This document shows positions 24,943 to 35,036 of a stretch of DNA of 40,233 bases, one piece after another. Position numbers and translations under genes: made by a program. The stretch is from Actinomycetota bacterium (GTDB lineage: Bacteria; Actinomycetota; Aquicultoria; Aquicultorales; Aquicultoraceae), in the NCBI GenBank assembly GCA_030018005.1, contig JASEGT010000002.1:1-40233 (forward strand). The letters run 5' to 3'. The notes under the pieces are model-generated. The model was not told the origin of the DNA. It searched no databases and saw only the letters and a program-made list of their open reading frames with translations. The stretch's first letter is position 1. Every line of letters begins with the position of its first letter.

Positions 24943-25731
24943 TTGCCTCAACGCTTGTTACTAACGATTGATGTCGGAAATACGCAAACGGTTCTAGGTC
25001 TCTTCAAGAAGAGAGAATTGGTGGGTGGTTGGCGAATCTCCACGAGGCGCGATACGACCTCGGATGAGTTTGCGGTCTCGATTTCTGATCTTTTTAAATT
25101 AGCCGGTTTTACGTTTAAAGATATCGTGGGAGTAGCTGTCTCATCGGTCGTTCCCTCGGTGACCGGTGCGCTGCGCGAGATGTCGACCGGCATTCTCAAT
25201 ATAGAGCCGCTCTTTGTCAGCTCGGAGACGAAAACAGGCATCCCTATACTCTATGACGATCCCTTTGAGATGGGAGCCGACCGTATCGCTAACGCTGTAG
25301 CCGGGGTAGAGATCTATGGCAGCCCGCTCATTATCGTCGATTTCGGGACCGCCACGACCTTCGATGCGATAAGTAAGAGCGGCGAGTATTTGGGTGGGGC
25401 TATTGCGCCCGGGGTAGAAGTCTCGGCCGAGGCCCTCTTTGGCAGGGCGGCGAGACTATCCAAGGTCGACCTGATTCATCCGACCTGTGCAATTGGCACG
25501 AACACAAGAAAGAGTATCCAGGCCGGGGTCATGATTGGAACCGGCGGGCTCGTCGACCGTGTCGTAGAGCGCTTCGAAGACGAAATGGGCAAGGTCGATC
25601 GTGTTGTAGCGACCGGTGGTTTGGCTGCGCTGATGGCGCCCGAGTGTAAGCGCATCACGGCCATCGATACCCTGCTCACGCTCACCGGCCTTCAGCGCAT
25701 CTACGAACGCAACAAGGAAATCCCAGGCTAG
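24943..25731 (+). CDS. coaX: Type III pantothenate kinase
   Basis: 262 residues from TTG 24943 behind AAAGGGGG. It phosphorylates pantothenate, the first step of CoA synthesis. The ASKHA fold motifs are LLTIDVGNTQT with catalytic D10, GADRIANAVAG (111-121), DFGTATTFDAI (133-143) and GGAIAPGVE. Type III enzymes need a monovalent cation and are not inhibited by CoA. It appears to be a single-gene unit between the nitroreductase and the protease. Confidence 0.95.
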   Translation: MPQRLLLTIDVGNTQTVLGLFKKRELVGGWRISTRRDTTSDEFAVSISDLFKLAGFTFKDIVGVAVSSVVPSVTGALREMSTGILNIEPLFVSSETKTGIPILYDDPFEMGADRIANAVAGVEIYGSPLIIVDFGTATTFDAISKSGEYLGGAIAPGVEVSAEALFGRAARLSKVDLIHPTCAIGTNTRKSIQAGVMIGTGGLVDRVVERFEDEMGKVDRVVATGGLAALMAPECKRITAIDTLLTLTGLQRIYERNKEIPG

Positions 25732-25896: not shown

Positions 25897-27075
25897 ATGT
25901 GGAAAACAGCTATTACAAGCTTTATAGCGGCCATCATCGGCGGCGCGCTGGTCTTTGGGGCTATTACTTACATCATCCCACAGGAGGTTCTTACAACCCC
26001 GGGAGCGACGACCACTACGACAATGCCCGACAGCGGGGCGAAGACTCCTCAACCGACCTTATCGCCGGCTGAGGTTTACGAACGATACAACAGCGGCGTT
26101 GTGCATATAAGGTCTGTCTTTACCGGAGAGCGTACCGACTTCTTCGGCTTTCCGATAGTCGAGACTCAGGTAGCCGAAGGCTCCGGCTTTATTATCGACA
26201 ATGCCGGCCTCATCGTCACCAACGCCCATGTCGTAGAGGGCTCAGACGTGAAGGCGAGCCAAATCACGGTGGTCTTGAGTGATAAGACCGAAGTCGAGGC
26301 TAAGCTCCTAGGTACCGACATCAACACAGACCTCGCGCTTCTCAAGATCGACCCGGGCAAACGCAAACTGGAAGTCCTCGAGCTTGGCGACAGCTCGAAG
26401 CTGAGAGTCGGCGATTCGGTATATGCCATCGGTTCACCGTTCGGGCTTGAGGGGACGATGACCGAAGGGATTATTAGCGCACTTAACCGGACCATCGACT
26501 CGCCGAACGGGCAGTTCAAAATCCGCAATGTCGTCCAAACCGATGCGGCGGTCAACCCGGGCAACAGTGGTGGACCTCTGATAAGCGTGACCGGAAAAGT
26601 CATCGGTGTGAACTCGCAGATTGCCGCGCGCTCGGGTGATTTTGCCGGTATCGCGTTTGCGGTACCCAGCAACACGGTCAAAGACATCGTCGCGCAGCTC
26701 CAAGATAAAGGGAGAGCGAGCCATCCGTGGGTGGGAATAAGCGGTATCGAGATCAACAAGGAGCTTGCCGACCTTATAACGCTCCCCGTAGACAGGGGAG
26801 TTTTGATAGCACAGGTCTTCCAGGGAAGTCCGGCGGCAGTCGCTGGACTAAAAGGCGGCGACAAGCGGCTTATCACCAATCAGGGTGAGATAATAATCGG
26901 CGGAGACGTCGTTACAAAGATCAACGGCACGATGATCACGACCATGGATGAGTTGATCGGTATCGTCCGGGACAACAAGGTAGGGGAGACTATCGAACTT
27001 GAGATTTACAGAGGGAACAATAGGCAATCGATCTCGCTCAAGCTTGGCGAGCTTCCACAAAGCACGAGCGAGTGA
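25897..27075 (+). CDS. HtrA/DegP-type membrane-anchored serine protease
   Basis: 392 residues from ATG 25897 with GGAAGGAAG upstream. An N-terminal TM anchor (5-27) and a Thr/Pro-rich linker (33-55) precede a trypsin-like domain (about 60-280) with the triad H111 (TNAHVV), D145 (NTDLALL) and S224 (NPGNSGGPL). One PDZ domain lies at about 295-385. It acts outside the membrane in protein quality control. The symbol htrA or degP could be used, but paralogues are common. The 165 nt upstream hold no clear promoter. Confidence 0.92.
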   Translation: MWKTAITSFIAAIIGGALVFGAITYIIPQEVLTTPGATTTTTMPDSGAKTPQPTLSPAEVYERYNSGVVHIRSVFTGERTDFFGFPIVETQVAEGSGFIIDNAGLIVTNAHVVEGSDVKASQITVVLSDKTEVEAKLLGTDINTDLALLKIDPGKRKLEVLELGDSSKLRVGDSVYAIGSPFGLEGTMTEGIISALNRTIDSPNGQFKIRNVVQTDAAVNPGNSGGPLISVTGKVIGVNSQIAARSGDFAGIAFAVPSNTVKDIVAQLQDKGRASHPWVGISGIEINKELADLITLPVDRGVLIAQVFQGSPAAVAGLKGGDKRLITNQGEIIIGGDVVTKINGTMITTMDELIGIVRDNKVGETIELEIYRGNNRQSISLKLGELPQSTSE

Positions 27076-27162
27076 TAGGTTTTGCCTCATGTTTATTGCT
27101 GAGATAAAAGCTTTTTTCGCCTAAACCAGGCGGGGACGGAGAACGATTGCTGAAGAAACGAG

Positions 27163-27205
27163 AGCCTAAGTTTTGTGCCTCATCGGCCCAAGATTTAGGC
27201 TTTTT
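27163..27205 (+). terminator. Rho-independent terminator after the HtrA-type protease
   Basis: AGCCTAAGTTTTG (27163-27175) pairs with CAAGATTTAGGCT (27189-27201) apart from one mismatch and one wobble, followed by TTTTT. It isolates the protease from the next cassette. Confidence 0.72.
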
Positions 27206-27250
27206 CCAGTTGAACTGTTGCGAGCGTTGGTTTAAACTGAAGAAGAAAAA

Positions 27251-27270
27251 TGTACACAATATTGTGCACA
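27251..27270 (+). promoter_or_regulatory. 20-bp palindrome, probable operator of the HTH cassette
   Basis: TGTACACAAT followed at once by ATTGTGCACA is a palindrome with a single mismatched pair. It lies 9 nt before the start of the HTH gene, just before its ribosome site (AAGGAGAA), and near the start point of a weak promoter TTGAAC-N17-TAAACT (27210-27238). Autoregulation by the HTH protein is the simplest reading. Confidence 0.6.
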
Positions 27271-27279
27271 AGGAGAACG

Positions 27280-27873
27280 ATGAGGCTTCTCAGAATCGGC
27301 GATAAAATAGTCGACCGTGACAGGCTTTCAAATATCATAGGCGAGATTCTAACTCGCCGTGCTGTCGGGGCGACCCAGCAGGAAGTCGCGCTGTCGCTCG
27401 GTGTCGAGAGGGCTTTCGTATCGCATCTGGAAGGCTTGGGGGAAGTGCGGCGGGGAAACCGCATCGCCGTCATCGGTTTTCCTATAGCGAACAAAGAAGA
27501 GCTGGAGGCGGTCGCGGGAAAGTTCGCGGTCGACCTCGTCCATTTCTTAAGCGAGAAAGAGCGCAAGGACTATGTGCTGAGGCGGAGCGGAGCGGAGATG
27601 TTCAATGAACTACTCGAGCTCTTGGCAGGTCTCAAAGATTTCGATGTGGTCGTCTTTCTGGCTTCGGATAAGCGCATCGCCATGGTCGAGAAAATTCTCG
27701 ACCGCGAAGTAATCGGCATCCCCCTAGGGAACTCTCCCATCAAAAGGGACAAAAAGGTAAAGCCCGAGGTCTTGCGTGATGTGCTGGAAAGCGTTACCGA
27801 CGGAAGGGGGCTAAGCCTTGAAACGGGTCGTAAGCGCAAGTTTAGGGTCTTCAAAAAGAAACCATCGAGTTGA
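27280..27873 (+). CDS. HTH transcriptional regulator of the acyl-reductase-like cassette
   Basis: 197 residues from ATG 27280 with AAGGAGAA 4 nt upstream; an in-frame ATG at 27250 has no site and lies in the palindrome. The N-terminal helix-turn-helix (about 31-52; TQQEVALSLGVERAFVSHLEG) is followed by a domain of unknown type (60-197) with alternating strands such as FDVVVFLASDKR. It ends in a basic tail (GRKRKFRVFKKK). It is the first gene of a three-gene unit and overlaps the second by 56 nt. The ligand is unknown. I recall similar proteins beside the same partners in Clostridia. Confidence 0.75.
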   Translation: MRLLRIGDKIVDRDRLSNIIGEILTRRAVGATQQEVALSLGVERAFVSHLEGLGEVRRGNRIAVIGFPIANKEELEAVAGKFAVDLVHFLSEKERKDYVLRRSGAEMFNELLELLAGLKDFDVVVFLASDKRIAMVEKILDREVIGIPLGNSPIKRDKKVKPEVLRDVLESVTDGRGLSLETGRKRKFRVFKKKPSS

Positions 27874-28723
27874 AGTAGAGCTTCTTGGTCAACAAATGAC
27901 AATCGAGCGCATCGGAACCGATGGAGACATGAAAAAGACAATGGAGGTCTTGCGCGAACTAGACGGCAAGGCCGATGCGATTGGCCTCGGCGGCATCGAT
28001 TTGTACCTCTTTGCCGATGGCCGGCGCTATGTCATACGCGATGCGCAAAAACTCAAGAATGTCGTCAAAGAGACTCCGGTCGTCGACGGAAGCGGGCTTA
28101 AAGACACCTTGGAGCGCGAGACAGTCCGTTATCTGGTCGAGGACGCCGGATTGTCTTTTTCAGATAAGACGGTCTTGATGGTCAGTGCGGTCGACCGCTT
28201 CGGGATGGCTCAAGCAATCAACTCGCAGGGTTCGAGGATGATATTCGGCGATTTGATATTCGGCCTCAACATACCGTTTCCCATCCGGACGATGGACAAC
28301 TTTACGAGAATCGCTAAGATGGTATTGCCGGTCGTCACCAGGATGCCGTTTAAGTTGCTGTATCCGACGGGAAGCAAGCAAGAACAGGAGTCGAACGAGA
28401 AGTATGCGCGCTTTTATGAAGAGGCGGATATAATAGCCGGCGACTATTTGTTTATAAGGAAATATATGCCCGCGAGTCTTAAGGGTAAATGGATATTGAC
28501 CAACACGACCACCGCGGATGATGTCGCCGATTTGAAGCGGCGTGGAGTCGAGCTGCTAATCACGACGACGCCGGTCTTCAACGGTCGCTCGTTCGGGACG
28601 AATGTGTTGGAGGCGGTCTTCTTGGCGCTTTTGGGTAAAGAGTGGGAAGAAGTCGAAGCGCAGGATTATCTAGAGCTTCTTAAAAGACTCGACTTTAAGC
28701 CGAGAATCGAAAGATTAAACTGA
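27818..28723 (+). CDS. Protein of the family labelled quinate 5-dehydrogenase (function unproven)
   Basis: 301 residues from TTG 27818 (AAGGGGG at 27803-27809), beginning inside the regulator gene. The N-terminal pattern VVSASLGSSKRNHRVEVELLG, then IGTDGDMKK, GLGGIDLYLFADGRRY and VVDGSGLKDTLER are strong, even motifs of one conserved family. Relatives are, from memory, called quinate 5-dehydrogenase in databases, but I know of no biochemical support and see no standard shikimate-dehydrogenase catalytic Lys/Asp motif. The middle segment SRMIFGDLIFGLNIPFPI is hydrophobic. No TM helix is certain. It probably works with the reductase encoded next. Confidence 0.65.
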   Translation: MKRVVSASLGSSKRNHRVEVELLGQQMTIERIGTDGDMKKTMEVLRELDGKADAIGLGGIDLYLFADGRRYVIRDAQKLKNVVKETPVVDGSGLKDTLERETVRYLVEDAGLSFSDKTVLMVSAVDRFGMAQAINSQGSRMIFGDLIFGLNIPFPIRTMDNFTRIAKMVLPVVTRMPFKLLYPTGSKQEQESNEKYARFYEEADIIAGDYLFIRKYMPASLKGKWILTNTTTADDVADLKRRGVELLITTTPVFNGRSFGTNVLEAVFLALLGKEWEEVEAQDYLELLKRLDFKPRIERLN

Positions 28724-28796
28724 TAGCGCGGACAGCTCACCGAACGCACTAACGAAACACGGAAGGAAGTAGTTTAGCTTGGCGCAGGGAGAACAG

Positions 28797-29876
28797 ATGG
28801 AGACGTTTGGTTTTTTAATACATCCGATGGATATAGCAGACGTAGCGAAGAAATACAAGATAGCCAAGAAGATTTCGCCGCGCGTAATCGGGAGCGTGCT
28901 TAAAAGGCGCAAACCGTTTGTCATTTCGGAGATTACCGGAATAAAGTCGCGAACCGGCAAGCTCGCCACAGGCTGGTTTATAGTCGTTCCGTTTTTGCCC
29001 AACCAGTTTTTTGACTTAGAGCAAGAGTATGTCGTCGAAAAGATAGCTAAGGCGTGCGAGGTCGGGAGAAAAGAGGGGGCGAAAATAGTCGGACTCGGCG
29101 CGTTTACCGCAATCCCCGGTGATGGCGGTAAAGAGGTGGCGAAAATCTCGAAGGTCCCGATTACAACGGGCAACACCTACACGATAGCGACGGCTATCGA
29201 AGGCACGCTCGAGGCGGCGCAGAAAATGGAGATAGACTTGGCGTCGTCTCGGTTAGCGATTGTCGGGGCGACAGGCTCGATAGGGAGCGCTTGCGCGGAG
29301 ATACTCGCGGACCAAGTCGGCGGCTTGACGCTTATCGGGCGGGACGAGAAGCGACTCGACAAGCTCGCCGCGCGCCTTGAGGGCAAGGCCGGTTCGCTCG
29401 AGGTGAGCACATCGCTTAAGATGATAAGCTCGGCGGATATTATTATCACCGTGACCGGAGCTGCGGATGCGGTTATAAAGCCCGAGACTATCAAAGCGGG
29501 AGCTGTCGTCTGTGATGTGGCGAGACCGCGCGACGTCGCCGAGCTGGTTGTCAGGACCAGACCCGACGTTTTGGTCATCGACGGAGGCGTGGTTCAGGTG
29601 CCCGGGCACGTCGAGTTCAACTTCGATTTCGGACTACCCAAAAGGTTGGCGCTTGCGTGCATGGCTGAGACTATGATGCTCGCCCTAGAGGGGCGCTATG
29701 AGAACTATACGCTCGGTAAGGATATAAGCGTCGATAAAATCCACGAGATAAACGATTTAGCCCGGAAGCACGGCTTTAAGTTGGCCGGGTTGCGGAGTTT
29801 TGAGCGAAAACTCACCGATGCCCATATCCAAAAGGTCAAGGAAAAAGCACGATTTAGTCTAGCCTTAGCCCAATAA
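28797..29876 (+). CDS. Acyl-ACP reductase-like oxidoreductase (COG5322-type)
   Basis: 359 residues from ATG 28797 (AGGGAG 5 nt upstream; the in-frame TTG 28779 is an alternative). The start METFGFLIHP matches where related proteins begin. It aligns by eye with cyanobacterial long-chain acyl-ACP reductase: LGAFT (100-104), TTGNT (123-127), the Rossmann loop GATGSIGS (157-164), DGGVVQVPGHVEFNFDFGLP, then LACMAETMMLALEGRYENYTLGK. C288 sits at the position of the acyl-thioester cysteine of AAR. Databases often name such proteins shikimate or amino-acid dehydrogenase. An NAD(P)H-dependent thioester-to-aldehyde reduction is therefore plausible but inferred. No aldehyde-deformylating oxygenase is nearby. 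Confidence 0.75.
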   Translation: METFGFLIHPMDIADVAKKYKIAKKISPRVIGSVLKRRKPFVISEITGIKSRTGKLATGWFIVVPFLPNQFFDLEQEYVVEKIAKACEVGRKEGAKIVGLGAFTAIPGDGGKEVAKISKVPITTGNTYTIATAIEGTLEAAQKMEIDLASSRLAIVGATGSIGSACAEILADQVGGLTLIGRDEKRLDKLAARLEGKAGSLEVSTSLKMISSADIIITVTGAADAVIKPETIKAGAVVCDVARPRDVAELVVRTRPDVLVIDGGVVQVPGHVEFNFDFGLPKRLALACMAETMMLALEGRYENYTLGKDISVDKIHEINDLARKHGFKLAGLRSFERKLTDAHIQKVKEKARFSLALAQ

Positions 29877-30039
29877 AAACCTGTGAGCGTAACCGAAAGC
29901 CTCCGGTGTATCCTGAGAGTGCCAAGTCAAGCCCCAGAACCTGCGGCTTAACCACGATGATTCAGGCGATACCCGCTCCCGCTAATACTCTTTTCTGATT
30001 TGCCGATATTTTCTATGACCATGCGCCGGTATAAATATT

Positions 30040-30068
30040 TTGACAATTATATGGCGTTTCCATATAAT
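30040..30068 (+). promoter_or_regulatory. Perfect sigmaA promoter of greA with a palindrome in the spacer
   Basis: TTGACA (30040-30045), a 17-nt spacer and TATAAT (30063-30068) match consensus fully. ATTATATGG (30046-30054) and CCATATAAT (30060-30068) form a perfect 9-bp palindrome with a 5-nt centre that fills the spacer and includes the -10. This makes it a likely repressor or activator site. Confidence 0.85.
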
Positions 30069-30137
30069 ACTTAGCTAGTCTCGCGTGAGGTCGGCACTAT
30101 TGCCAAAGGCCTCTACGATGTAAAGGAGCGAAACGGT

Positions 30138-30632
30138 TTGTCAGAGAAAGAAGTCATTCTCACTAAAGAAGGTTACAGCAAATTAGTCGAAGAGTTGCAC
30201 CATTTGGAGACTAAGCGCCGCAAGGAAGTAGCGCAGCGCATCAAAGAAGCTATCGAGTTCGGGGATTTGAGTGAAAACTCCGAGTATGACGATGCAAAGA
30301 ACGAGCAAGCATTCTTGGAAGGCAGGATCATCCAGATCAACGACATGCTTGCGTTGGCAAAGGTGATAGAAGAGAACGGCCAGAGCAAATCGACAAAGGT
30401 GAGCGTCGGCTCGCGTGTGGTCTTGCTCGATATCGAGTCCGGCGACGAGGAGGAGTATCAGATAGTCGGGTCGTTCGAAGCAGACCCTACGAATCACAGG
30501 ATATCGAACGAATCGCCTGTCGGTCGTGCTATTATAGGTAAAAAAGCAGGGGAGGTCGTCCAGGTTCGTGTGCCGGAGGGCTTTCTCGAGTATAAGGTAG
30601 TTGAAATCAAGAAGAACGCTGCAAAGAAATAG
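30138..30632 (+). CDS. greA: Transcription elongation factor GreA
   Basis: 164 residues from TTG 30138 with AAAGGAG at 30122-30128. It rescues backtracked RNA polymerase by stimulating transcript cleavage. The N-terminal coiled coil carries the acidic tip GDLSENSEYDDAK (about 48-60), whose D and E residues coordinate Mg2+. The C-terminal FKBP-like domain (80-164) has SVGSRVVLLD and SPVGRAIIGKKAGE. Length is standard. It is transcribed with lysS from the promoter at 30040. Confidence 0.96.
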   Translation: MSEKEVILTKEGYSKLVEELHHLETKRRKEVAQRIKEAIEFGDLSENSEYDDAKNEQAFLEGRIIQINDMLALAKVIEENGQSKSTKVSVGSRVVLLDIESGDEEEYQIVGSFEADPTNHRISNESPVGRAIIGKKAGEVVQVRVPEGFLEYKVVEIKKNAAKK

Positions 30633-30639
30633 ATGATAC

Positions 30640-32145
30640 ATGAATAAAGAGCCAATCCAACAGGCCTCAGATATCAATGAGTTGATGCTACAGAGACGCC
30701 AGAAGCTCGATGTGATGCGGGCTTCTGGCGATAATCCGTTCAAGTCTAAATTCGACCGCACGCACACCTTATCCGAAATAATCGAGCGATTCGTGTCAAT
30801 CGAAGCGGGGGACCAGACCGGGGAGACGGTTATCGTGGCAGGTAGGATAATGGCTATCCGGCGTCACGGGAAAGCCGGCTTCATGGTTCTGAAAGACCGC
30901 ACCGCCGGCATACAGCTATTCCTTTCTATCGGTGCCCTCGGCGAAGAGCAGTACAGGGCGTTTCTCGATTATGACATCGGCGACATCGTCGGAGTCACCG
31001 GCATTGTCTTTAAGACCAGGCGGGGCGAACTCTCGATTGACGTCAGGGATTTCAGCCTACTTACGAAATCGCTAAGGCCGCTTCCCGAGAAATGGCACGG
31101 CCTGAAGGACGTCGAGACAAGGCACCGCCAGCGTTATGTTGACCTCATCATCAACGAGCAAGCGAGAAAGACGCTCTTAACTAGGACTAGAATCATCAAA
31201 GCTATGCGTAATTGGCTCGATAGCAGGGATTTTATTGAGGTCGAGACGCCGATGCTACAGGCGATACCGGGTGGGGCGATGGCTAAACCATTTATCACGC
31301 ACCACCAGGCGCTCGATATCGATTTATATATGCGAATCGCACCGGAGTTGTACTTAAAGCGTCTGATTGTCGGAGATATGGAACGAGTCTATGAGCTTAA
31401 CCGCAATTTCCGCAACGAGGGGATATCGGTCCGGCACAACCCGGAATTCACGATGCTCGAGGTCTATCAGGCTTATGCTGATTATGAAGATATGATGGAT
31501 TTATGTGAAGGCCTGATCAAGCATGTCGCGGAAGAAGCCCTTGGTGCGCTGCAATTTGACTACCAGGACAAGCCGGTCGACCTCTCTGGAAAGTGGTCCC
31601 GGCTTACTATGATCGAATCTATTGAGCAGTACGGCGGGGAAACGGTCTCTTTCGATATGGATATAGACGACTTGCGCTCGGTTGCCAAAAAGCACGGCAT
31701 CGAGGTCAAGAGCCGTTACGGCAAGGGAAAGCTTATCAACGAGCTATTTGAGAAGCTGGTCGAGACGAAACTGTGGCAACCTACCTTCATCATCGATTAT
31801 CCGACCGAAATAAGTCCGCTGGCCAAGAAGAAACAGGATAACCCCGATGTGACCGAGCGTTTCGAGTTGATAGTAATCGGCCTCGAGGTCGGCACGGCGT
31901 TTTCTGAGTTGACCGACCCTATAGACCAGCGTGAGCGTTTTGAGGCACAAGTCAAGCTCTTCGAATACGGCGATGAGGAAGCGCCGAAACAGGTCGACGA
32001 GGATTATGTCCGGGCGCTGGAGTATGGCATGCCGCCTACCGGCGGAATGGGCATAGGTATCGACCGGCTCGTCATGCTCTTGACCGATAATTACTCGATT
32101 CGTGAGGTCATAAGCTTTCCGCACATGCGTCCCGAGAAAGATTAG
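30640..32145 (+). CDS. lysS: Lysyl-tRNA synthetase (class II)
   Basis: 501 residues from ATG 30640, only 7 nt after greA and with a poor ribosome site, so translation may depend on coupling. An OB-fold anticodon-binding domain (about 55-170; VAGRIMAIRRHGKAGFMVLKD) precedes the class II core: motif 1 near VETPMLQAIPGGAMAKPF, motif 2 FRNEGISVRHNPEFTMLE, motif 3 GGMGIGIDRLVMLLT. All catalytic motifs are intact. The greA-lysS pair is common in Gram-positives. Confidence 0.97.
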   Translation: MNKEPIQQASDINELMLQRRQKLDVMRASGDNPFKSKFDRTHTLSEIIERFVSIEAGDQTGETVIVAGRIMAIRRHGKAGFMVLKDRTAGIQLFLSIGALGEEQYRAFLDYDIGDIVGVTGIVFKTRRGELSIDVRDFSLLTKSLRPLPEKWHGLKDVETRHRQRYVDLIINEQARKTLLTRTRIIKAMRNWLDSRDFIEVETPMLQAIPGGAMAKPFITHHQALDIDLYMRIAPELYLKRLIVGDMERVYELNRNFRNEGISVRHNPEFTMLEVYQAYADYEDMMDLCEGLIKHVAEEALGALQFDYQDKPVDLSGKWSRLTMIESIEQYGGETVSFDMDIDDLRSVAKKHGIEVKSRYGKGKLINELFEKLVETKLWQPTFIIDYPTEISPLAKKKQDNPDVTERFELIVIGLEVGTAFSELTDPIDQRERFEAQVKLFEYGDEEAPKQVDEDYVRALEYGMPPTGGMGIGIDRLVMLLTDNYSIREVISFPHMRPEKD

Positions 32146-32573
32146 AGAGTAATCGTCCGTTCAGTAAAAGCTCAACCCCCCAGTTTAGCACCCTATTCAT
32201 GATGACTCTGTTTTTACATAGTTTCTGGATTCTCCCTTCCATGTACGGTATCCTAATTGTAGGTTCGCTCGGCGAAGCGGGCGAGTAATCAATCGCGAAA
32301 TGCTTGCCGATAATCTTAATTATCGGCATCGTGCAAGGCATGTACGTCTTGGGATTCTATTGCGTCGAGTGTGGGCAAGCGGTGGTTTAGTAGCGGCTTT
32401 GTTGTCACTCCAATAGATCGCTTGCCTTAGCGGTCGCGCTGGTTTGGTGTTAATATATTAATAACTGTTTGTGCCAAAAAATTTGTGGGCATATTACAAT
32501 TGGGCGGCTGCGCACTTATGGTAAGCGGAAGGTGCATTAAGCTTAGCCGGAGTAAGGGAAGGGAGTATGAGTC
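32146..32573. other. 428-nt structured gap between lysS and clpC
   Basis: It holds a perfect 10-bp hairpin TGCCGATAAT-CTTA-ATTATCGGCA (32305-32328), a GGCAAGCG/CGCTTGCC pair (32374-32381 and 32419-32426), a TTAATATATTAA palindrome (32450-32461) and a TTTGTG direct repeat (32468-32473 and 32482-32487). A weak promoter TTGTGC-N17-TATTAC (32469-32497) could serve clpC. A 28-codon hydrophobic frame (32202-32288) lacks a ribosome site. No lysS terminator with a T-run was found. Confidence 0.5.
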
Positions 32574-35036
32574 GTGTTTGAGCGATTTACAGAGAGAGCG
32601 CGAAGGGTAGTGGTGTTTGCCCAGGAAGAAGCTCGCATGCTCAATCAAAACTATATAGGAACCGAGCACCTTCTCTTGGGCCTGATAAGAGAAGAAGAGG
32701 GTGTCGCCGCGCGGGGTCTTCAGAGCCTGGGTATCAGCCTTTATGACGTTCGCGCGCAGGTCGAAGAGATTATAGGGAGGGGCACATCGGCCCCGGTCGG
32801 GCATATACCGTTTACACCACGGGCAAAGAAAGTTCTCGAGTTGTCGTTGCGTGAAGCCCTGCAACTCGGTCACAACTACATAGGAACCGAGCATATCTTG
32901 CTGGGTCTCATCAGGGAAGGTGAGGGCGTTGCGGCCCGCGTCTTATATAATTTGGGTGCCGATTTGGATCGCGTCAGAAATCAGGTCATTCAGCTTCTGA
33001 GTGGTTACTATGGAAAGACGAGCGAACCGGCGACGTATGGTCGCACCTACAGCGGCTCGCTTCTCGACGAGTTTGGTCGCAACCTCACGCGGCTGGCCCG
33101 CGAGGACACGCTAGACCCGGTTATCGGCCGGGAGAAAGAGATAGAGCGGGTCATGCAGATTCTGAGCCGTCGGACCAAGAACAATCCGGTTCTCATCGGC
33201 GAGCCCGGTGTCGGCAAGACAGCCGTTGTCGAGGGGCTCGCTCAGCGTATAGCCAATAATGACGTGCCCGATATGCTCAAAGATAAAGAGATATATACGC
33301 TCGACCTCGGAGCGCTCGTAGCCGGCTCGAAGTATCGCGGCGAGTTTGAGGAACGCCTTAAAAAGGTGATAAAAGAGATTCGCGAGCGAGGGGATGTCAT
33401 TCTCTTCGTAGATGAGATGCATAACTTGGTCGGCGCGGGCGCCGCAGAAGGCGCAATCGACGCGGCCAGTATTTTAAAGCCGGCGTTGGCACGAGGCGAA
33501 CTGCAGACCATCGGTGCGACGACGCTCGATGAGTACCGCAAGCATGTGGAGAAGGACGCGGCCCTCGAGCGCAGGTTTCAGCCGATAGTCGTCGGCGAGC
33601 CTTCGGTAGAGGAGACCGTCGATATACTAAAAGGTCTTCGCCAACGCTATGAGGACCATCATAGAGTGACCATCACAGACGACGCATTGATTGCGGCGGC
33701 GCAGCTTGCGAGCCGCTACATAGCCGACCGCTTCTTGCCAGATAAAGCGATTGACCTGGTAGATGAGGCTTCGTCTAAGGTTCGCATGAAGAGGATGAAC
33801 GTGCCCGATGAGAGTCTCGAGATTGAAGAGGATTTGCGCAATCTGCGACGCGAGAAAGAAGCTGCGATTGCGGTTCAAGACTTCGAGAAAGCGGCGAGCA
33901 TTCGCGACAAAGAGCGCGGGCTCGAAATCGAGTTGACGATGAAAGACTCGACATGGGAGGCGCTTGCGAGCATGCCGGTCGCGGCCGTCACCGATGAGCA
34001 GATAGCAGAGATAGTCGCGACCTGGACGGGAATCCCGGTATTTCGCCTAACCGAGGAAGAGACCGCGAAGCTCCTTCGGATGGAGGAAGAGCTCCACAAG
34101 AGGATAGTCGGTCAGGATGAGCCGATAAAGGCGGTCTCTAAGGCGATTCGAAGGACGCGCGCGGGACTAAAAGACCCGAAGCGACCCTCGGGTTCGTTCA
34201 TATTTCTTGGCCCGTCGGGCGTCGGCAAGACCGAGCTTGCGAAGGCGCTCGCCGAGTTTCTCTTCGGCGACGAGAAAGCGCTGATTCAGCTCGATATGTC
34301 GGAATATATGGAAAAGCATACCGTATCGAGGATGGTAGGCTCCCCACCGGGATATGTCGGTTACGACGAGGGGGGCCAGCTAACGGAACAGGTGCGAAGG
34401 CGCCCGTACTCGGTCGTGCTCTTAGACGAAATCGAGAAGGCACATCCCGATGTCTTCAATATACTTCTCCAGATATTGGAGGACGGGCGTCTTACCGACG
34501 CACAGGGGCGCTCGGTTGATTTTAAAAATACCATAATAATCATGACGTCGAATCTCGGTGCTCGCTTCATACAGAAAGGAACACCGTTAGGTTTCGGCAA
34601 AGCCCAAGAAGGCATATCATATGAAGAAATGAAATCAAAGGTCATGGGCGAGATAAAGAAGACGTTCAGACCGGAGTTTCTCAACCGGATAGACGATAGT
34701 ATAGTCTTCCATGAGTTGAACAAGGAAAACGTTAAGAACATCGTCGACCTGATGTTTAAAAGGGTCGTTGACCAGCTCAGAGAGCAAGCTATCGAAGTTG
34801 AGCTGCGCGAGGAGGCCAAGGAGATTCTCGTCAAAGAGGGCTATGAGCCCGCGATGGGAGCTAGGCCGCTTCGCCGCGCGATTCAGCGGTTTATCGAGGA
34901 CCCGCTATCCGAAGCGTTACTCAATGGCTACTTCAAGGCCGGCGACAAGATAATCATCGATGCCAAAGACAACAAAATCGATTTTGTCCGCCTCGATGCG
35001 TCACCGGTTGGAACAGCCGGTGAGCGCGGCGTATGA
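32574..35036 (+). CDS. clpC: ATP-dependent Clp protease ATPase subunit ClpC
   Basis: 820 residues from GTG 32574 with AAGGGAG at 32559-32565. Hsp100 unfoldase that feeds ClpP. The N-domain has two Clp-N repeats ([15 protein letters not shown] at 26-40 and [15 protein letters not shown] at 101-115). AAA1 Walker A GEPGVGKT is at 209-216. A middle UVR-type coiled coil lies around 425-455. AAA2 Walker A GPSGVGKT is near 546-553. Sensor-2/D2-small ends with [11 protein letters not shown]. Overlap with radA (ATGA) couples the two. No ctsR, mcsA or mcsB precedes it. Confidence 0.97.

Follow-up and report, generated by a model that had tools for sequence, protein, structure and literature searches.

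Thioester reductase (TR) domains that hand an aldehyde to a class III aminotransferase have been described in PigE (prodigiosin), TamH (tambjamine) and KecF (koreenceine), three two-domain fusions encoded in antibiotic or pigment clusters (PMC8341465, PMC9594044, PMC6498172, each in the part available to us). In the fused enzyme PtTamH, as far as the accessible text of PMC9594044 goes, C12-ACP is converted to the aldehyde and then to the C12 amine, and the enzyme is specific for NADH. A related reductase is AAR, whose residue C294 bears the acyl group in the crystal and whose residues R73, R79, K80 and Y247 are required for ADO binding, according to the accessible portion of PMC7089970. We analysed a cassette of three genes in a stretch of 40,233 nucleotides (hereafter the window; contig JASEGT010000002.1, positions 1 to 40,233) from the genome of an uncultured bacterium, a Candidatus Aquicultor (2.19 Mb, 99.4% complete). 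Gene 1 encodes a helix-turn-helix (HTH) protein, gene 2 a protein given the database label quinate 5-dehydrogenase in an earlier reading of the window, and gene 3 a stand-alone homologue of the TR domains of PigE, TamH and KecF, with the same Cys and glycine motif. We propose, at what we judge to be even odds, that the cassette is an autoregulated operon for acyl-thioester reduction, the aldehyde of which is turned into an amine by TamH-like chemistry distributed over separate genes. Unlike the described fusions, the reductase and the aminotransferase would here be separate proteins encoded at unlinked loci, and the operon carries its own regulator together with gene 2.

The identity of gene 3 is the firmest part of this proposal. 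We are highly confident that it encodes a thioester reductase of the AAR/PigE/TamH superfamily, because the sequence scores, the match of its predicted fold and the retention of the catalytic Cys and glycines all point to this class. Over residues 10-355 of the 837-residue PigE model it scored 207.5 bits (the cut-off of 850 applies to the whole two-domain protein), against 133.7 bits for the AAR model TIGR04058, whose curated cut-off of 449.7 is not reached. The same order was found with the PDB sequences, the top match being PigE 4ppm (E 2.9e-34), followed by AAR 6jzq (E 8.9e-31). That earlier reading, made from the sequence only, had called gene 3 an AAR homologue and had proposed a profile search and a structural comparison as checks. 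The superfamily, the fold and the Cys of that assignment stand, and the AAR profile does find gene 3, but the reductase half of PigE is the closer relative by score. The AlphaFold2 model (51 aligned sequences, mean pLDDT 93.1) was superimposed on AAR 6jzy over almost the full chain, with a Z of 37.2 and an rmsd of 2.8 for 325 of the 359 residues. The second-best fold match was the TAD domain of carmabin (PDB 9e4s and others, Z about 35), which is part of an assembly line and shares 17-18% identity with gene 3; the Z then dropped to 14.3, and Foldseek gave an identical order. The TTGNT, GATGSIGS and LACMAETM segments picked out by the sequence-only reading are all present. C288 (in the 359-residue numbering) aligns with C294 of AAR and is a Cys in 90 of 91 aligned homologues, and each of the three Gly of the GxxGxxG dinucleotide loop is found in 91 of 91. 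R182 and R186 occupy the positions of R189 and R193, which bind NADPH in AAR according to the available description of that enzyme. Gene 3 passes the broad PF01488 domain (48.7 bits for a cut-off of 24.3); as a shikimate dehydrogenase it was rejected, with 26.1 bits against a curated cut-off of 252 (NF001319), so the earlier warning that the dehydrogenase names mislead was justified. Loci L002 and L003 encode a gene 3 product with 95% identity to that of the window.

The sequence-only reading had connected the reductase to alkane synthesis, and this connection did not survive. No ADO (PF11266) was detected in any of 40 genomes, comprising that of the window and its relatives, while control genomes were matched; we therefore reject an alkane pathway. 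Moreover, of the four AAR residues required for ADO binding, gene 3 keeps K80 only. In the nearest relatives the likely consumer of the aldehyde is a class III aminotransferase, the gene of which lies between gene 2 and the TR gene in 13 of the 40 genomes (PF00202 in the two tested). An open reading frame (ORF) for an SRPBCC protein is found in eight of the ten fetched loci with this arrangement (PF03364 in the two tested). The ORF caller, which takes the longest first, placed antisense ORFs over some real genes, such as greA in the window and the SRPBCC gene of locus L202; the latter was confirmed by tblastn, and the SRPBCC genes of L130 and L131 were not. In the window's own genome, gene 3 has no fused class III aminotransferase, and the closest one is encoded on another contig (C111), followed by genes for an SRPBCC protein and a CDP-alcohol phosphatidyltransferase. 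Two relatives (G005 and G010) have the same aminotransferase-SRPBCC-phosphatidyltransferase order. In a phylogenetic tree these unlinked aminotransferases were sister to those of the cassettes together with one Bacillota sequence (98/91), apart from the argD-like enzymes. It is because of this gene order in relatives and this tree that we route the amine pathway through the second locus; that an amine is the product in this genome appears about as probable as the contrary.

According to this proposal, C288 of gene 3 would accept the acyl group of acyl-ACP (or acyl-CoA), and NAD(P)H-dependent reduction by the same enzyme would release this group as an aldehyde. The aldehyde would then pass, in this lineage, to the class III aminotransferase to give a primary amine, the SRPBCC protein possibly serving as a hydrophobic carrier for this step. 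In the window's genome the latter two proteins would act from the second locus, next to the CDP-alcohol phosphatidyltransferase. Gene 1 would repress its own operon by binding the palindrome that closely follows the −10 box. Gene 2, a predicted AAR-fold protein devoid of the Cys, would serve the same process, whether as a partner subunit or at a different step, and this is the weakest part of the scheme.

The association of TR with aminotransferases extends to other lineages. A wider tree, which is a quick one from a short search with nine rows omitted, covered 37 genomes that have TR but do not belong to Aquicultor or its closest relatives. An aminotransferase of the cassette clade was present in 16 of these, and one of a clade adjoining the fused PigE/TamH-like enzymes in 12. 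Five of the 30 loci fetched for it have an SRPBCC gene beside the aminotransferase, one of them (in G062, the genome of L027) with TR adjacent. Aminotransferase-TR fusions occur in L043, L045-L047, L061, L069 and other loci, and in Clostridia the fused protein is encoded behind the same regulator and operator as in the window. Among plasmids, TR was matched in 16 records, with 27-33% identity; 13 of these matches lie inside a gene annotated as a class III aminotransferase, two are in unannotated records and one falls on no feature. Gene 2 had no match in 72,556 plasmid records. One Chloroflexi protein of 1538 residues (L046:3491-8104) combines an AMP-ligase, a carrier domain, a class III aminotransferase and a TR in a single chain, and by its domains would form a whole acid-to-amine line. 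In tambjamine synthesis, AMP-ligase, carrier, aminotransferase and TR parts convert a C12 acid, by way of acyl-ACP and aldehyde, to the C12 amine (PMC9594044, accessible text).

Gene 1 is very probably a dedicated autoregulator of its own operon. The protein itself has a weak HTH_31 match in Pfam (E 0.14), a homologue in L011 passes PF01381 (HTH_3), and the gene is present in 29 of the 40 genomes. Its presumed target, absent from the sequence-only reading, is the palindrome TGTACACAATATTGTGCACA, separated by 12 nt from the probable −10 box upstream of it and by 9 nt from gene 1. From 109 loci with a gene-1 match we kept those whose alignment began no later than residue 3 and that had at least 40 nt upstream, which left 62 distinct regions. 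A site with at most five mismatches from a consensus chosen after the sites had been seen was found in 59 of these 62 and in none of 1240 shuffled regions. The lineages that carry it include Aquicultor's class, Tepidanaerobacter, Desulfotomaculum-like bacteria and the Clostridia with a fused aminotransferase-TR. When at most one mismatch is allowed, the window's genome has a single occurrence of the pattern. It occurs in 23 of the 40 genomes, each time before gene 1, plus two additional occurrences overall (G003 and G018); a reversed control pattern occurs in three of the 40 (G005, G006 and G010). A conserved site before gene 1, at one place in the genome, is the pattern expected of a dedicated autoregulator, in keeping with the earlier description of the cassette as regulated.

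Gene 2 is more difficult to place. No Pfam family, PF01488 included, matched it at E 1, the single NCBIfam match was unrelated (E 0.12), no PDB sequence was matched and a profile search gave chance matches only. In its predicted model (pLDDT 93.1), VIA-align found AAR 6jzq as the best match (Z 13.4, rmsd 4.5, 249 residues aligned), tied with TAD (13.3) and followed by glutamate dehydrogenase (10.2). This comparison suggests that the predicted fold resembles AAR best, minus the catalytic residue. Gene 2 has no conserved Cys, the majority Cys being at position 139. When positions are assigned by the order of strands and helices in the predicted models, N262 (in 70 of 71 homologues) falls where TR has C288, and D126, R127 and G129 of a DRFG motif (in 71 of 71) fall at the glycine loop of TR. 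The label quinate 5-dehydrogenase, which the sequence-only reading gave to gene 2, is also printed for a conserved, slowly evolving and uncharacterised family of Deinococcus and Thermus, csCOG deino9.00587, in the accessible part of PMC9425974, the Deinococcus genome table of which comprises 33 genomes. This may be the gene 2 family, a lead provided by the shared label only.

The distribution of the two genes argues for a common process, in which gene 2 rather probably takes part. Among the 40 genomes, TR is present in 36, the window's included (the raw tally of 38 contains G026 and G036, which have weak matches to other dehydrogenases and were left out), and gene 2 in 37. Both lie on one contig in 34, the window's genome included, as counted by hand; the count takes in G003 and G015, in which one of the genes is truncated at a contig end. 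The pairing with the second protein had been anticipated by the sequence-only reading, and it extends to other phyla. For the phylum-level group that contains Tepidanaerobacter, 299 genomes were compared, of which 224 had gene 2 and 187 had TR; both were present in 184, TR alone in three and neither in 72 (Fisher p 6e-36, not corrected for common descent). This overlap was compiled by hand from two match lists, with totals equal to those of the tallies. Among the 50 rows at the head of one list, also counted by hand, gene 2 lies immediately before TR in 39 and elsewhere in nine, two rows giving no place. When 50 genomes were collected by their TR, gene 2 was present in 45, unlinked cases included, and missing from five (G042, G044, G056, G077 and G087). 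Other arrangements were seen in single relatives: gene 1 directly before TR with no gene 2 (G009), a gene 1-TR pair with gene 2 elsewhere (G006), and a gene 1-gene 2 pair with no TR (G018). Unlinked gene 2 is followed in seven of 20 loci (L178, L179, L181, L182, L185, L186 and L187) by genes for an SCP2 domain protein of about 117 residues and an amino acid permease.

Several observations weigh against the amine proposal as a whole. The operator palindrome is not found at the aminotransferase locus, and a wider regulon was rejected on this ground. The aminotransferase of the window's genome has its best scores, although under the cut-offs, with NCBIfam models of putrescine aminotransferase. 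Gene 2 is the weakest point: some genomes have it but no TR, and its function may be a separate one. Foldseek, applied to its model, puts sugar-binding proteins first and AAR only eighth. The hhalign comparison of gene 2 with TR gave a score of 16.0 (E 0.3), inside the range of 12.8-22.8 of 17 control families, none of which was picked as a Rossmann protein. With smaller alignments the score was 19.6 (E 0.11), and the two runs are suggestive by their register and length only. Common descent of gene 2 and TR, as judged by profile comparison, is therefore unsupported against these control families. Furthermore, 40 of the 224 genomes with gene 2 in the 299-genome set have no TR match at E 1e-40. 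One could thus imagine that gene 2 has a separate core function and has no more in common with the reductase than its promoter and its location. Where TR is unmatched, the gene 1-gene 2 pair can indeed persist with coaX-dus on one side and greA-lysS on the other, and in Desulfotomaculum-like genomes gene 2 is located elsewhere, with SCP2 and permease genes. We regard this explanation as possible but somewhat doubtful, since gene 2 accompanies TR in 184 of 187 genomes (common descent uncorrected) and in 45 of the 50 found through TR, and directly precedes it in most of the rows inspected. In addition, two of the 40 genomes with gene 2 alone (G201 and G244) hold a diverged TR-like ORF, with 30-34% identity. 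At the expected TR place after gene 2, locus L234 (5404-6270) and its counterpart in L237 have an ORF of 289 residues without a Pfam match, possibly a very diverged TR.

A second objection concerns the fate of the aldehyde. Seven of the 37 other TR genomes have only argD-like aminotransferases (two by the tree and five by listing), and two have none at E 1e-60; one member of the argD-like-only group (G052) also has a 50% identical aminotransferase fragment. The fatty aldehyde made by TR might thus be converted to an alcohol, or enter ether lipids or waxes, the link with an aminotransferase being limited to some lineages. Long-chain alcohols are used for bacterial ether lipids. Nevertheless, an aminotransferase gene adjoins TR or is fused to it in relatives from Aquicultor's class, in Bacillota (L027/G062), in Clostridia and in Pseudomonas, and on these searches for aminotransferases we consider this alternative unlikely. 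Still less probable is a small or polar acyl thioester as the substrate, with a small metabolite as the amine: the aminotransferase of the window's genome, like those of the cassettes, does score best with putrescine aminotransferase models, under their cut-offs (493 against 612 and 427 against 659 bits). Against this, several lineages have next to the aminotransferase the SRPBCC protein, whose Pfam name is 'polyketide cyclase / dehydrase and lipid transport'; the unlinked loci mentioned above encode an SCP2 domain protein after gene 2; and the characterised relative PtTamH accepts C12-ACP (PMC9594044, available text).

Known pairs of TR and aminotransferase come from antibiotics and pigments, and in the open-licence literature we found no article dealing with a stand-alone operon of AAR type from Clostridia or Aquicultor. 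What would be new here is TamH-like chemistry in separate genes, with a regulator of its own and an unexplained partner, in housekeeping surroundings and in several phyla. The genes around the reductase form a conserved housekeeping neighbourhood. The regulator, apparently a dedicated one, has a DNA site that is almost unchanged across phyla, and the adjoining gene 2 belongs to a slowly changing family with no assigned function. Taken together, the housekeeping setting, the dedicated regulator and the slowly changing partner point to a general lipid or amine product, of a kind not yet assigned to these bacteria in the open-licence papers searched. Deinococcus and Thermus have alkylamine lipids, and alkylamine phosphoglycolipids of both were reportedly described by Anderson and co-workers; it is the shared label and these lipids that connect them to the gene 2 system. 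We offer as speculation, with little expectation that it will prove right, that the operon and the split aminotransferase-SRPBCC-phosphatidyltransferase locus form a core-genome route to long-chain alkylamines of membrane lipids in Aquicultor's class, Armatimonadota and Clostridia, gene 2 being a second, Cys-less component of AAR fold. If gene 2 belongs to the Deinococcus/Thermus 'quinate 5-dehydrogenase' family (PMC9425974, accessible part), the same system may help to explain the alkylamine phosphoglycolipids of those bacteria.

The layout of the locus agrees with the sequence-only reading in most respects (Table 1). The three genes lie where it had put them and are co-directional. Their description as tightly packed was right in direction and understated in degree, as genes 1 and 2 overlap by 56 nt. 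Overlaps of similar length occur in relatives (e.g. G024, G005 and L008), so that the basic tail of gene 1 would be read over the conserved start of gene 2. For gene 3, an in-frame TTG at 28779 is an alternative start, which would give 365 residues. The two boundaries proposed earlier were both found. Upstream, the terminator fold (27150-27212) has a free energy of -25.2 kcal/mol and a z of -5.25, equalled by none of 200 shuffles; downstream, the greA promoter is perfect. The probable promoter of the cassette was found by reading, the threshold of the promoter scan lying above 8/12.

Table 1. Features of the cassette in the window and of the second locus in the same genome.
Feature	Position	Strand	Remarks
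Intrinsic terminator	27160..27206	+	Ends the HtrA-like protease unit that precedes the cassette; stem followed by a U run
Probable promoter, TTGAAC-17-TAAACT	27210..27238	+	8/12 consensus matches; also present upstream in near relatives
20-bp palindrome, probable operator of gene 1	27251..27270	.	Conserved upstream of gene-1 homologues
Gene 1, HTH protein, probable autoregulator	27280..27873	+	197 aa
Gene 2, function unassigned, AAR-like predicted fold	27818..28723	+	301 aa, TTG start
Gene 3, probable thioester reductase (TR), AAR/PigE/TamH superfamily	28797..29876	+	359 aa from ATG
greA promoter, downstream limit of the cassette	30040..30068	+	TTGACA-17-TATAAT, 12/12 consensus positions
Closest class III aminotransferase, window's genome	G000:C111:5142-6425	-	Unlinked to the cassette
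SRPBCC protein, window's genome	C111 4689-5120		Follows the aminotransferase
CDP-alcohol phosphatidyltransferase, window's genome	C111 4047-4586		After the SRPBCC gene

No Rfam family matched positions 26900-30700 at gathering scores. The cassette is flanked on one side by coaX, then an HtrA-like protease gene, and on the other by greA-lysS-clpC (window positions 24943-25731 and 30138-35036). In many Clostridia it is likewise flanked by coaX, a dus gene, greA and lysS.

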